NCBI GenBank assembly: GCA_016927285.1 | Contig: JAFGMZ010000032.1 | Span: forward strand, 1 to 33,984 | DNA: 33,984 nt | DNA from: Chlorobiaceae bacterium | GTDB lineage: Bacteria > Bacteroidota > Chlorobiia > Chlorobiales > Chlorobiaceae | Direction: 5' to 3' | Shown here: positions 25,925 to 32,212 of the stretch, one piece after another | Layout of the letters: each line of letters starts with the position of its first letter | How positions within the stretch are numbered: the stretch's first letter is position 1 | Program-made: the position numbers and the translations under genes | The notes under the pieces: generated by a model | The model's input: the letters and a program-made list of their open reading frames with translations, nothing else | Database searches by the model: none | Told to the model about the DNA's origin: nothing

Positions 25925-25947
25925 ATACCCCAACCCCGTATAGGTAT
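25925..25947. promoter_or_regulatory. Candidate CsoR/CstR-type operator ATACCccaaccccgtataGGTAT
   Basis: C/G-rich interrupted palindrome about 70 bp upstream of the CsoR-family gene. Confidence 0.5.
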
Positions 25948-26014: not shown

Positions 26015-26245
26015 ATGGATGATGTGACGCTCAGGTTGAAGAAGGTAGCCGGACAGGTGGAGGCTCTTGTCAGAATGATCGATGGCGGGGAGAGCTGCGA
26101 CAAAGTTATTGTTCAGTTTCAGGCGGCAAAAGCGGCTCTTGACAGGACGTTTTCGCTTGTACTTGACAGAAGCCTTAAAGAGTGCATGAGTCATAACGAC
26201 TCCGAAAATGTGGGCAAGATTCTTAAACTCATTTCTAAACAGTAG
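26015..26245 (+). CDS. CsoR/RcnR (DUF156) family metal- or persulfide-sensing repressor
   Basis: LRLKKVAGQVEALVRMIDGGESCDKVIVQFQAAKAALDRTFSLVLDRSLKECM; Cys28 and Cys57, Ser53 at the usual His position. Confidence 0.9.
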   Translation: MDDVTLRLKKVAGQVEALVRMIDGGESCDKVIVQFQAAKAALDRTFSLVLDRSLKECMSHNDSENVGKILKLISKQ

Positions 26246-26251
26246 TATACC

Positions 26252-27580
26252 ATGAAGCTATACCAGGCATTGGCCGGTATCTGCCTTTTCGGAGCGCTTG
26301 CCGCTCCAGCCGGAGCCGTTGCCGGCAGCAGGACTGTCAAGCTTTCGCTCAACGAGGCATTGCGCATGGCTCGCGACAATAACTATACCATCAAGGCGGC
26401 TCGCAGCAGGGTAGATCAGGCAGACGCGAAGATTTTGCAGACTCGCCAGTCATACCTGCCGAAAGTCACGCTTTCGGAAACCGTCATGGTGACGAATGAT
26501 CCCGGCGCAGCACTGGTGTTCAAGCTGCAGCAGAACAGCGTCCGGCAGGCGGATTTCCTTCCTGAGAAGCTCAATGATGCGGCAACGATCAACGATTTCA
26601 ATACCTCAATCCAGGTGGCCCAACCGATCTACAATGCCGATGCGGCCATCGGACGAAGGGTCGCATCGACGGCAAGGAAGGCACAGGAGTATATGGCGTC
26701 GAGGACGGAGGAGTCGATCGAATTGCAGGTAAGCAAGGTCTATTACGGCCTTGTTCTCGCCCGGAAAAACATCGAATCGATCGAGCAGTCCATTATTGCT
26801 ATGCGGGAGCACAGTCGGGAAGCCGGAAAGGCTTATCAGGCGGGCATTCTTCCGAAGTCCGACAAGTTGTCGACCGAAGTCAGGCTTGCAGAGCTCAATG
26901 AGCAGAAGCTCATGCTGCACGATGCAGTCAGAAATGCTACCGATGCATTGCGAGTGATGCTCAACCTTGAGCAGGATGTTATGGTTATACCGATCGGAGG
27001 TTTCGTTATCGGCAAGGGAGCTCCGGATGTCGATGACGCACGTGTTCCCGAGAGTCGGGGCGATCTCATGGCCATGCAGACCTACAGGGAAATAGCGGCT
27101 CAGCAGGGCGATATGGCGCGCGCATCGAGGCTGCCGAGAGTAAACGGGTTTCTTCGTACCGACCTGCACAGTGACAATATTTTTGGTGGAGGTTCAAGCT
27201 GGACCATGGGGGTTAACGTTCAGTGGGATATATTCGACGGCAGGGCATCGGAAGGGCGTATTCAGGAGGCTAAGGCAATGGAGCTCGAAGCGATGTATTC
27301 GTATGAGGCGGCAAAAAACGGGAGCCTTGCTGAAATCAGAAAAGCCGCTCGCGAAATGAAAACCGCCAAAGCAAGGATTGCCGTTGCGCAACAGGCGCTC
27401 TCCGAGTCCAGAGTCAGTCTCGATTATATCAGCGAGCAGTTTAAAACAGGTATGGCCATGACGTTCGAACTGCTCATGCGCGAAGGGGCATACACCTATG
27501 CCAACCTGCGGCTCAATCAGGCAAGGCATGACTACTGTGTCGCCAGAAGCGAGTTGGATTACTACAGGGGTAAACAATAA
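26252..27580 (+). CDS. TolC family outer membrane efflux protein
   Basis: Signal peptide; KLSLNEALRMARDNNYTIKAARSRVDQADAKILQTRQSYLPKVTLS. Confidence 0.92.
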   Translation: MKLYQALAGICLFGALAAPAGAVAGSRTVKLSLNEALRMARDNNYTIKAARSRVDQADAKILQTRQSYLPKVTLSETVMVTNDPGAALVFKLQQNSVRQADFLPEKLNDAATINDFNTSIQVAQPIYNADAAIGRRVASTARKAQEYMASRTEESIELQVSKVYYGLVLARKNIESIEQSIIAMREHSREAGKAYQAGILPKSDKLSTEVRLAELNEQKLMLHDAVRNATDALRVMLNLEQDVMVIPIGGFVIGKGAPDVDDARVPESRGDLMAMQTYREIAAQQGDMARASRLPRVNGFLRTDLHSDNIFGGGSSWTMGVNVQWDIFDGRASEGRIQEAKAMELEAMYSYEAAKNGSLAEIRKAAREMKTAKARIAVAQQALSESRVSLDYISEQFKTGMAMTFELLMREGAYTYANLRLNQARHDYCVARSELDYYRGKQ

Positions 27581-27585
27581 ATTCG

Positions 27586-28035
27586 ATGCTATTTTACCCT
27601 AAAATCATTAAAGCCATGGGATCAAGAGCGATCATGCTTCAGCTTCTGGCCGTGACCTCAGGCATTCTTGGCAGTTGCAGCAGTGAAGAGCCGAAGCATA
27701 AAGGGCTTGGCGCCCCGGAGGGCCCGGTATCTGTGGTCAGCATAGTATCCGTAGCACGGCATGCCGATGCGGCAGGAACGGTTGTACTGCTTGTGCCCGA
27801 TGATGCGATTTTCCGCCAGGGCGAGCTTGCAGGAGTTTATGTTGTCGGCAGCGATGGGCATATTTCAACCCGATGGGTTCGTACCGGAAAGGTTGAAGAT
27901 GGGGATTATAGGGTTATTCTGGGTGGGCTCGATGCGGGCGAACGGGTTGTCAGCAGCTATGATCGTACGCTCAGGGAGGGTGTGCGGGTACAACAGCAGG
28001 TTTCAGTAACTAATGAGGTTCAGTCCAATGAATGA
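27586..28035 (+). CDS. Shortened RND periplasmic adaptor (MFP)-like lipoprotein lacking the central domains
   Basis: Lipobox-like ILGSC; membrane-proximal-type VLLVPDDAIFRQGELAGVYVVGSDGHISTRWVRTGKVEDGDYRVILGGLDAGERVV; only 149 aa. Confidence 0.75.
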   Translation: MLFYPKIIKAMGSRAIMLQLLAVTSGILGSCSSEEPKHKGLGAPEGPVSVVSIVSVARHADAAGTVVLLVPDDAIFRQGELAGVYVVGSDGHISTRWVRTGKVEDGDYRVILGGLDAGERVVSSYDRTLREGVRVQQQVSVTNEVQSNE

Positions 28036-31000
28036 AGGTATTGCAGGCAGGCTTGCCAAGCAGTTCATAAACTCGAAGATCACGCCGCTGCTTATGGTGG
28101 CATCTCTTCTTGTTGGTATTATGGCAACGTTCATGACCCCGCGGGAGGAAGAACCGCAGATCGTCGTGCCCCTTGTCGATATATTCATCCCCTATCCCGG
28201 GTCGACTCCTTCAGAGATCGAAGAGCGGGTAGCAAAGCCTTTCGAGCGTTCCCTGACGGAAATTCCCGGAGTCGATTTCGTCTATTCGACCTCGATGCCG
28301 GATATGGCGCTCGTGACGGTTCGCTACGATGTCGGGGCGGATACGGAGGAAAGCATGGTCAAGCTCTGGACCGCGCTGATGAAAAATATGGACAAAATGC
28401 CTGCCGGCGTTCAGATGCCTCTCATGAAAAAAGTGGCCATCGATGACGTGCCGGTACTTAACCTTACTTTCTGGAGCAAGACAAGAGATCCTTACGAGCT
28501 CAGGCGTATTGCGCTGGAAACTGCCGACAACCTGAAAAAGACCGAAAATATCGGCGATGTCGAAGTAAAGGGCGGTTTGAAGCGACAGATCAGGGTGCAG
28601 CTTGACAAAGAAAAACTCGGCAGGTTCAACGTCACCCCATTGCATATCGCCCGCCAGATACAATCGTCCAATATCCAGGCCACTGCGGGCGATTTCAAGC
28701 AGATGAACCAGGAAATTATTGTCAAATCCGGCCGTTTTCTTGAAAGTGCCGAAGACGTCGGTAATATTGTTGTCGGTGTTTATGGAGCTTCGCCGGTCTA
28801 TCTGAAAGACGTTGCTGATATCGTCGATGGCCCCGAAGAGGTTGGCAATTACACGTTTTTCGGATGGGGCGCCGCAGCGGAGTCGATTGACGGCGGAGAG
28901 TATCCGGCAGTGACCCTGACAGTAGCCAAACGAAAAGGGGCAGATGCGACAAGCGTAGCAAGGAATGTGATGACGCGGGTAGAGTCCATGAAAGGTTCGG
29001 TTATTCCCGAAGAAGTAACGGTCACAGAGACAAGGAACTACGGAGAAACAGCGTCCGAAAAAGTGTTTACCCTGCTCGAACATCTCATAGGGGCAGTAGT
29101 GGCAGTGACCATTGTTGTCAGTATTTTCCTTGGATGGCGGGGGGGCCTTGTGGTTTTTGCATCGGTTCCGATCACCTTTGCGCTGACTCTTCTGGTCTAT
29201 TATCTCTTCGATTACACCCTCAACAGGGTGACGCTCTTCGCGCTGATTTTCGTTACCGGTATCGTGGTAGATGACTCGATAATCATCGCAGAGAATATTC
29301 ACCGTCATCTTTCGATGCGAAGAATGCCTAAGATGCAGGCCGCGATTTCGGCAATCAGCGAGGTTGGTAATCCGACGATTCTGGCAACTCTTACGGTCAT
29401 TGCCTCTGTGTTGCCCATGGTGTTTGTCTCCGGCCTGATGGGCCCGTATATGAGCCCGATGCCGATTGGCGCATCGCTTGCCATGGTATTCTCTCTCTTT
29501 GTTGCGCTCATAGCGACGCCATGGCTTTCTTATCGGTTGTTGAAGGCCGATGATGCTCATGGAGAAGAAGAGTACGATATCAGGAAGTCGGCTTATTACC
29601 GATTTTACGATAAAATTCTCATGCCTTTTCTCAACAACAGGCTGTTGGCACTCGGAGCCTTTGTCTTTGTAGGTCTGTTGCTTGCCGGCTCGATCCTGAT
29701 GATTCCGTTCAAGATGGTGGAGCTCAAGATGCTCCCATTCGACAATAAAAGCGAATTTCAGGTAATCGTAGACATGCCGGAGGGTACCGGTCTGGAACAG
29801 ACCGCAAGAGTCGCCAAAGAGATATCCGCATATCTGAAAACCGTACCGGAGGTGGAAAACTACCAGTATTATGCTGGCACGAATGCGCCGATCAATTTCA
29901 ACGGTTTGGTACGGCACTACTATCTGCGACAGGCAGATAATATGGCCGATATACAGGTGAATCTCGTTCCGAAGGAGGATAGAAAGGATCAAAGTCACGA
30001 TATTGCCAAACGGGTTCGTCCGGGAGTACAGAAGATCGCTGAAAAATATGGAGCCAACGCCAAGGTTGTTGAAATTCCACCCGGGCCTCCGGTACTTTCG
30101 ACGATCGTTGCGGAAATCTACGGGCCCTCCCTGAAAGATCAGATCGCCCTTGCCGAAGAGGTGAAAAAAGCTTTTGCTGAAACGCCGGGCGTCGTGGATA
30201 TAGACTGGCTCGTCGAGGATGACCAGAAAGTATATGATCTGGTTATTGACAAGGATCGAGCGGCATTCAGGGGCATTACGACCGAGCAGATTGTTCAGAC
30301 CCTGAGGATGTCGCTCGATGGAGTAGATGTCGGACTTCTGCATACAGAAAACGAGATCGAGCCGGTTTCAATACAGCTCAGGCTTCCGCAATCAGACAGA
30401 ACCTCGATAGGAGATCTTTCAGGGATATTCGTCCAGTCCCAGGGTATGGGCAGTCTTACCACAAGGCTTCGCACAGGTCAGATGATTCCGCTATCAGAAC
30501 TGGTTACCATAAAGGAGAAAGTTCAGGACAAGAGCATCTATCGCAAAGATCTGCACCGAATCGTCTATGTGACGGCTGATGTTGCAGGAATTACGGAAAG
30601 TCCGGTATACGCAATGCTGGAGATCGACAAGAGAATTGCGAATATCAAGGTTCCTGGCGGATATTCCATTACTCCTCGCTACACATCGCCGCCACAATCC
30701 GAAAAACAGCTTTCCCTGAAATGGGACGGGGAGTGGCAGATTACTTTCGAAGTATTCAGGGATCTCGGTACGGCGTTTGCCGTGGTGCTTGTCGTCATCT
30801 ATCTTCTGATAGTTGGCTGGTTCCAGTCCTTCAAAACTCCGATCGTCATGATGATTGCCATACCGCTTAGCCTTGTCGGTATTATCCCTGGTCATTTTAT
30901 TCATGGCGCATTTTTTACCGCAACCAGCATGATCGGCATGATAGCCCTTGCCGGCATCATGGTGAGAAATTCAGTGTTGCTTATCGATTTCATACAACTG

Positions 31001-31237
31001 CGCATCGCAGAAGGCATTGCACTGAAGCAGGCTGTGGTCGAATCGGTCGCAGTCCGTACAAGGCCGATTCTGCTTACAGCGGGTACGGTAGTTATCGGTG
31101 CAGTGGTCATTCTGTTCGATCCTATATTCCAGGGGCTTGCAATATCCTTGATGTGGGGGTCGCTTCTTTCAACTGTTCTGACGCTTGGTATCGTCCCGTT
31201 GACCTATTATCTGATTGAAAAGAAAAAACACCAATAA
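28028..31237 (+). CDS. RND family efflux transporter, inner-membrane permease
   Basis: SKITPLLMVASLLVGIMATFMTPREEEPQIVVPLVDIFIPYPGSTPSEIEERVAKPFE; FVTGIVVDDSIIIAENI; start placed at MNEGIAG. Confidence 0.95.
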   Translation: MNEGIAGRLAKQFINSKITPLLMVASLLVGIMATFMTPREEEPQIVVPLVDIFIPYPGSTPSEIEERVAKPFERSLTEIPGVDFVYSTSMPDMALVTVRYDVGADTEESMVKLWTALMKNMDKMPAGVQMPLMKKVAIDDVPVLNLTFWSKTRDPYELRRIALETADNLKKTENIGDVEVKGGLKRQIRVQLDKEKLGRFNVTPLHIARQIQSSNIQATAGDFKQMNQEIIVKSGRFLESAEDVGNIVVGVYGASPVYLKDVADIVDGPEEVGNYTFFGWGAAAESIDGGEYPAVTLTVAKRKGADATSVARNVMTRVESMKGSVIPEEVTVTETRNYGETASEKVFTLLEHLIGAVVAVTIVVSIFLGWRGGLVVFASVPITFALTLLVYYLFDYTLNRVTLFALIFVTGIVVDDSIIIAENIHRHLSMRRMPKMQAAISAISEVGNPTILATLTVIASVLPMVFVSGLMGPYMSPMPIGASLAMVFSLFVALIATPWLSYRLLKADDAHGEEEYDIRKSAYYRFYDKILMPFLNNRLLALGAFVFVGLLLAGSILMIPFKMVELKMLPFDNKSEFQVIVDMPEGTGLEQTARVAKEISAYLKTVPEVENYQYYAGTNAPINFNGLVRHYYLRQADNMADIQVNLVPKEDRKDQSHDIAKRVRPGVQKIAEKYGANAKVVEIPPGPPVLSTIVAEIYGPSLKDQIALAEEVKKAFAETPGVVDIDWLVEDDQKVYDLVIDKDRAAFRGITTEQIVQTLRMSLDGVDVGLLHTENEIEPVSIQLRLPQSDRTSIGDLSGIFVQSQGMGSLTTRLRTGQMIPLSELVTIKEKVQDKSIYRKDLHRIVYVTADVAGITESPVYAMLEIDKRIANIKVPGGYSITPRYTSPPQSEKQLSLKWDGEWQITFEVFRDLGTAFAVVLVVIYLLIVGWFQSFKTPIVMMIAIPLSLVGIIPGHFIHGAFFTATSMIGMIALAGIMVRNSVLLIDFIQLRIAEGIALKQAVVESVAVRTRPILLTAGTVVIGAVVILFDPIFQGLAISLMWGSLLSTVLTLGIVPLTYYLIEKKKHQ

Positions 31238-31258: not shown

Positions 31259-31564
31259 ATGAAGTTTCTGGCAATTATGGGGCATGAAGAGACTCGTCCG
31301 CAGGTTCGGGAGCTTTTCAGGAAGTTCGAAGTGCTTATGTTCAGCAACATGTCTATAAAAGGCTGCTATTGCGACAAAGGCATGACTCCTCAATCCTGGT
31401 GGCCTGCCGAAAAAGGTGTCGGATCGTATTCTTCGCTCTGCTTTGCCATCCTTGACGATGCCAAGGCAGACGAGATTGTCAGGGAGCTTGAAGCTCATCC
31501 GATAGCAGTTGAGCCGGGCTTTCCCGCTCGCGCATTTGTTATGAACGTCGAAAAAATGCTTTGA
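31259..31564 (+). CDS. PII-like small protein
   Basis: MKFLAIMGHEETRPQVRELFRKF ... GCYCDKG ... CFAILDDAKADEIVRELEAH; small ferredoxin-like alpha/beta pattern; downstream of RND gene. Confidence 0.55.
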   Translation: MKFLAIMGHEETRPQVRELFRKFEVLMFSNMSIKGCYCDKGMTPQSWWPAEKGVGSYSSLCFAILDDAKADEIVRELEAHPIAVEPGFPARAFVMNVEKML

Positions 31565-31570
31565 ACGCAC

Positions 31571-32212
31571 ATGTTTGTCAAACAGTTTCGTACTGGCGGC
31601 GATCGAAATTTTGCCTACCTTGCCGCTGATGAGGCGTCAAAAGAGGCTTTTGTCGTCGACCCATCCTATGATCCCGTTTCGATCGTCCGTTACGCCATTC
31701 AGGAGGGGTTCGCGATACGCTATGTGTTTTGTACCCATGGTCATACCGATCACACGAACGGCAATGAGGAAATGGAGCGCCTGACAGGAAGGACAGCCCT
31801 GCTTTCAGGGGATATCTGCCCGGATTCCGGAATCCGGGTGGAGGACGGTGCGACCTATCCTCTTGGTTCCTCCCGGGTTCATATCCTGCATACGCCGGGA
31901 CACACGCCGGATTCGATCTGCCTTTACGCGGGCGACGCTCTTTTTACCGGGGATACTCTTTTTTCCGGCAAGGTGGGCGGTACCTCTTCAGACGAAGATG
32001 CCCGGGCCGAGTATGACTCCCTCCACAAAAAAATTCTTCAGCTTCCTGCTGATACCATCGTCTATCCGGGGCATGACTATGGCGTCCGTTCCCGGTCGTC
32101 ACTTGCCGAAGAAGCCGCATCCAATCCATTTTTGCTGCAGCCGGATTTTTCTGCGTTTCTTTACCTGAAACGCAACTGGGCCGCCTATAAAAAAACGCAG
32201 GGTATCAAATAA
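31571..32212 (+). CDS. Metallo-beta-lactamase-fold hydrolase/dioxygenase (glyoxalase II / persulfide dioxygenase-like)
   Basis: THGHTDHTNG motif, HTPGHTPDSICLY, FTGDTLFSGKVGGT, YPGHDYG. Confidence 0.9.
   Translation: MFVKQFRTGGDRNFAYLAADEASKEAFVVDPSYDPVSIVRYAIQEGFAIRYVFCTHGHTDHTNGNEEMERLTGRTALLSGDICPDSGIRVEDGATYPLGSSRVHILHTPGHTPDSICLYAGDALFTGDTLFSGKVGGTSSDEDARAEYDSLHKKILQLPADTIVYPGHDYGVRSRSSLAEEAASNPFLLQPDFSAFLYLKRNWAAYKKTQGIK

Follow-up and report, generated by a model that had tools for sequence, protein, structure and literature searches.

The locus described here raises the question of what signal is sensed by a small repressor encoded at the head of an RND efflux operon in a Chlorobiaceae bacterium. 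The gene lies in a stretch of 33,984 nucleotides, referred to below as the window, and an earlier note on this DNA had proposed that its product is a CsoR-family repressor that lacks the copper-ligand histidine and may respond to reactive sulfur, in the manner of CstR. We consider it likely that the protein is a CstR-type sulfane-sulfur sensor and repressor controlling a small sulfur regulon. The features of the window that bear on this question, with the evidence for each, are as follows.

25926..25946, forward strand: predicted operator TACCCCAACCCCGTATAGGTA, with one mismatch to TACCN2TACN3GTAN2GGTA (pattern search, conservation)
26015..26245, forward strand: CsoR/RcnR-family (PF02583) repressor, CstR-like, with Cys28/Ser53/Cys57 (ORF, Pfam, alignment)
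26252..27580, forward strand: TolC-family outer-membrane efflux protein (PF02321, TIGR01844, synteny)
27586..28035, forward strand: short RND adaptor-like lipoprotein of about 140–149 aa (RND_mfp, positions 240–320 of 322)
28013..31237, forward strand: RND permease (PF00873; RND_permease_2, 433.6 bits)
31259..31564, forward strand: PII-like protein, judged by eye, of about 101 aa with a conserved GCxC motif (conserved in synteny)
31571..32212, forward strand: metallo-beta-lactamase (MBL)-fold enzyme, ETHE1/persulfide-dioxygenase-like, 213 aa (PF00753, PDB profile, AlphaFold, Foldseek)

The csoR reading frame has an ATG start and encodes 76 amino acids. Its product scores 64.1 bits against PF02583 (DUF156), for which the cut-off is 22.8, and is therefore a genuine member of this family. 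The AlphaFold model of the repressor (21 family members) has a pLDDT of 95.6 and consists of three helices, and the solved folds nearest to it are those of CsoR, CstR, InrS and FrmR, all of the CsoR family; the family assignment made in the earlier note is thus borne out. The top PDB profile match of the protein is CstR from Streptococcus pneumoniae. No second PF02583 protein turned up in the genome of the window, a draft that is 85.6% complete. Low-scoring NCBIfam matches to the FrmR and RcnR models could suggest a sensor of formaldehyde or of Ni/Co, yet the scores fall far under the curated cut-offs (30.8 of 133 for FrmR and 28.5 of 138 for RcnR), the FrmR and RcnR proteins form a separate clade, and formaldehyde or Ni/Co genes are absent nearby. 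We rate a sensor of this type as exceedingly improbable.

Cys28 and Cys57 are spaced by 29 residues and Ser53 lies four residues ahead of Cys57, exactly as had been read from the sequence at the outset. Alignment to CsoR, InrS, FrmR, RcnR and CstR references shows that Ser53 occupies the position at which CsoR has its His ligand, and the Cys-His-Cys ligand set of CsoR is consequently absent from the window protein. Both Cys are invariant among 21 aligned Chlorobiaceae proteins, in which the His column is occupied by Asn, Ser or Asp and never by His, a degree of conservation that takes the Cys28/Ser53/Cys57 pattern beyond chance. When the same column is read locus by locus across the genome collection (leaving out a few locus rows in which the pattern search gave another stretch), it is mostly Asn; Ser occurs in the window subclade as well as in a single Antarctic Chlorobium, Asp at one locus.

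The reference proteins give these residues a context. All of the copA-linked CsoRs in the reference set have the His ligand together with a Tyr just ahead of the first Cys, whereas the CstR-type references, whose genes adjoin those for rhodanese, TusA or TauE, have Asn in the ligand column in all cases but one (Gly) and in no case a Tyr before the first Cys. The window protein and its kin follow the CstR pattern, with the exception that the window protein has Ser in place of Asn. A sensor of Cu(I) or another soft metal, which would use the two Cys with some other third ligand and control an RND/TolC pump that exports the metal, would share the CsoR-family fold seen here. This reading has to account for the family-wide replacement of the His and for the missing Tyr beside the Cys.

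In a small first tree that held a single CstR reference the placement was left undecided, and CstR and CsoR references were then added from plasmid records. In the best tree, comprising 37 proteins, the Chlorobiaceae proteins and three Patescibacteria-type proteins group with CstR (support 95/85 with all columns), and this group is separate from CsoR as well as from FrmR/RcnR/InrS. To see whether the ligand columns themselves drive the grouping, the three of them were removed in a second tree; the CstR grouping was kept at 83/82, although the alternative in which CsoR groups with the Chlorobiaceae proteins was not rejected (p-AU 0.317), a point in favor of a metal sensor. The earlier note had named placement within a metal-sensing clade as an outcome that would speak against a sulfur sensor, and the best tree does not place the proteins in such a clade. 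The alignment has fewer than 90 columns, and we therefore take the tree as moderate evidence. Patescibacteria-type genomes encode CstR-like repressors that are 45–49% identical to the Chlorobium protein (L127:703-933, L128:9001-9231 and L133:2421-2651). These genes adjoin genes for membrane transporter-like proteins, and a csoR gene within the genus (L206) adjoins a similar transporter-like gene.

The operon runs in the order csoR, TolC-like protein, short adaptor, RND permease, PII-like protein and MBL-fold enzyme, with gaps that are short or overlapping, and a gene for a CBS-domain protein begins 126 bp past the MBL gene. This gene order is kept across the Chlorobiaceae. The short adaptor has a lipobox-like signal and aligns with periplasmic adaptor models in their C-terminal part only; similarly short adaptors are found in relatives, and an RND pump with such a minimal adaptor is unusual. 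The PII-like protein found no match in Pfam, NCBIfam or PDB searches. In two lineages (L093 and L118) the MBL gene follows csoR directly, with no pump genes between them. Chlorobium ferrooxidans carries a second csoR elsewhere, at the head of the pump genes (L093 and L105). These split arrangements tie the pump half and the MBL half of the operon each independently to this type of regulator. Tandem csoR pairs are also present at L079, L088, L092, L094 and L097, and in these the operator pattern described below is often missing for the upstream copy.

The presence of an RND efflux system next to the repressor gene counts in favor of a metal sensor, and a pump of this kind in a persulfide regulon counts against the CstR reading. 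However, the permease is nearer to multidrug-type models (RND_permease_2, 433.6 bits) than to those of CusA/CzcA (TIGR00914, 282), and no copper gene, such as copA or copZ, was found at the operon or at the operator sites inspected.

The sequence profile of the MBL-fold enzyme ranks ETHE1-type structures first in the PDB, with human glyoxalase II scoring as high as ETHE1. The AlphaFold model has a pLDDT of 90, and in a Foldseek search its first nine rows belong to ETHE1/persulfide dioxygenases or to an Arabidopsis protein interspersed with these; human glyoxalase II follows in row 10. The enzyme shares with ETHE1 and the persulfide dioxygenases the metal-site motifs THxHxDH, H, D and YPGHDYG; it differs in being shorter and in having GGT where ETHE1 has GRTDFQ. 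From profile and model, then, the fold and metal site appear nearest to ETHE1/persulfide dioxygenase, though not exclusively so, glyoxalase II being close, and persulfide dioxygenase activity is not assured because the enzyme lacks the Arg of GRTDFQ. Persulfide dioxygenases are mononuclear iron enzymes that need O2, which an obligate anaerobe would have to supply.

A 21-bp palindrome of the form TAC-N3-TAC-N3-GTA-N3-GTA is found upstream of csoR in nearly all of the Chlorobiaceae loci examined. With up to one mismatch allowed, the operator pattern gave 100 forward matches in 61 genomes of the genus, against 6 for a backward control. It had no site in 12 genomes of the same order that lack a PF02583 repressor, and none in two genomes of the genus without a PF02583 match. 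Contexts were inspected at 40 loci, mostly for sites away from csoR, and then at 20 more that included odd-looking ones, so that 64 sites out of roughly 100, among the matches listed, were covered. Most of these (54 of 64) precede genes for csoR, rhodanese, OsmC or cytochrome c. The other ten comprise eight sites within coding sequence, which were taken as chance matches, one before a gene for an ODP-type flavoprotein and one at a contig end. The OsmC and cytochrome c genes among the predicted targets adjoin genes for SQR-like flavoproteins; in the OsmC operons these flavoproteins match the type III SQR model weakly and are accompanied by a DUF2892/YgaP-type protein.

The window's genome has two operator sites, of which the first precedes csoR and the second a rhodanese gene (contig C81, L171:2122-2496). 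The rhodanese site is the only perfect one and lies 84 bp ahead of the gene, whose product (124 aa, PF00581) carries the active-site loop CRSGNRS. Operator positions and operon content together predict that the repressor controls genes for sulfur transfer and persulfide handling. The content of this predicted regulon is the strongest evidence for the CstR reading, and it is independent of the residue argument. The operator core resembles that upstream of copper CsoRs, for example Listeria csoR. Because copper CsoR promoters share a similar core, the motif cannot tell sulfur sensors from copper sensors, and the resemblance is compatible with a metal sensor. The genes behind the inspected sites, none of which is a copper gene, fit that alternative poorly. 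Given these genes and the missing His and Tyr, we judge a metal sensor very unlikely.

The earlier suggestion of a reactive-sulfur sensor of the CstR kind is accordingly supported by the grouping with CstR, the ETHE1-like MBL enzyme, the operators before rhodanese and OsmC/SQR-like genes, and the presence of DsrA in the window's genome. With DsrA present and green sulfur bacteria as its relatives, the host plausibly oxidizes sulfide. Besides the pump, the points that we count against a CstR-type sensor are the Ser in place of Asn, the CsoR grouping that was not rejected, the copper-like operator core, the absence of the Arg from the MBL enzyme and the equally high profile score of human glyoxalase II for that enzyme.

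In Staphylococcus aureus, CstR represses cstA, cstB (encoding a persulfide dioxygenase) and sqr (PMC5480029). In characterized CstR the two Cys become persulfidated and cross-linked across a subunit interface, which leads to DNA release and derepression (PMC5480029, PMC9405070), and a similar mechanism is expected here. A tetrameric dithiol repressor would sit on the 21-bp palindrome and shut off its own operon and one or two distant genes. With a rise in sulfane sulfur (persulfide or polysulfide), Cys28 of one subunit and Cys57 of the partner subunit would be persulfidated and cross-linked, the affinity for DNA would fall, and the target genes would be expressed. The genes so derepressed would encode the persulfide-dioxygenase-like enzyme, the RND efflux system and the rhodanese and, in several relatives, also the OsmC-like protein, SQR-like flavoproteins and cytochrome c.

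The two Cys would also be compatible with a thiol-based repressor that answers to another reactive signal, such as an electrophile, oxidant, quinone, nitroxyl, tellurite or selenite, the sulfur genes then being part of a wider thiol-stress response. Nitroxyl is reported to cross-link S. aureus CstR (PMC5480029), sulfite, selenite and tellurite are reported to modify the Cys of CstR (PMC5016687), and the multidrug-type RND system within the operon would suit such a role. The predicted rhodanese, SQR-like and persulfide-dioxygenase-like targets, however, point more directly to sulfane sulfur than to general oxidants, and we think it unlikely that the main signal is one of these others. If sulfane sulfur is the signal, the pump itself could be part of the response: the RND system with its minimal adaptor may export sulfane sulfur, as polysulfide or on a carrier, from the periplasm or cytoplasm under CstR-type control. 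We hold this role to be rather doubtful; if correct, it would link persulfide sensing to extracellular sulfur traffic in green sulfur bacteria.

Comparison with known systems suggests that it is the composition of the operon that is unusual, while the regulator itself probably belongs to the known CstR type. CstR of S. aureus, S. pneumoniae and Enterococcus and YrkD of Bacillus, known from B. licheniformis as the repressor of a sulfur cluster (PMC9918477), share with the window protein the family, the fold and the two Cys columns, the absence of the His ligand and of the Tyr ahead of the first Cys, and an association with rhodanese and persulfide-dioxygenase-type genes as neighbors or targets, predicted in the present case. 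The window subclade differs from them in having Ser for Asn and a C-terminus about 10 residues shorter than that of S. aureus CstR, and its system differs in that the operon includes genes for an RND efflux system and for a PII-like protein, and in the four-word 21-bp palindrome. The copA-linked CsoRs likewise share the fold, the two Cys columns and a similar operator core, but they retain the His four positions ahead of the second Cys and the Tyr before the first, and have copA as a neighbor. A further precedent is TTHA1953 of Thermus thermophilus, a CsoR-like master regulator of the Sox pathway (PMC10318464). It too is a CsoR-family repressor linked to sulfur oxidation, and its operator TACNNTACNNNNGTANNGTA is made of the same TAC/GTA words, with a spacing that gives 20 bp rather than the 21 bp of the Chlorobiaceae. 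The targets of TTHA1953 lie far from the regulator gene, whereas the Chlorobiaceae regulator heads its own operon.

No sulfur-responsive regulator of green sulfur bacteria, and no paper on this one, was found in the open-access literature searched. In one genome (L197), operator sites occur near soxB, soxA and a soxZ-like gene as well as near genes for OsmC, for SQR-like flavoproteins and for a flavoprotein of the ODP type; the sox genes are at most candidate targets. If the CstR reading is true, it would identify for these bacteria a repressor by name, its exact DNA site and a small set of targets, and would connect both an RND pump and a persulfide-dioxygenase-like enzyme with the control of reactive sulfur in a phototroph.
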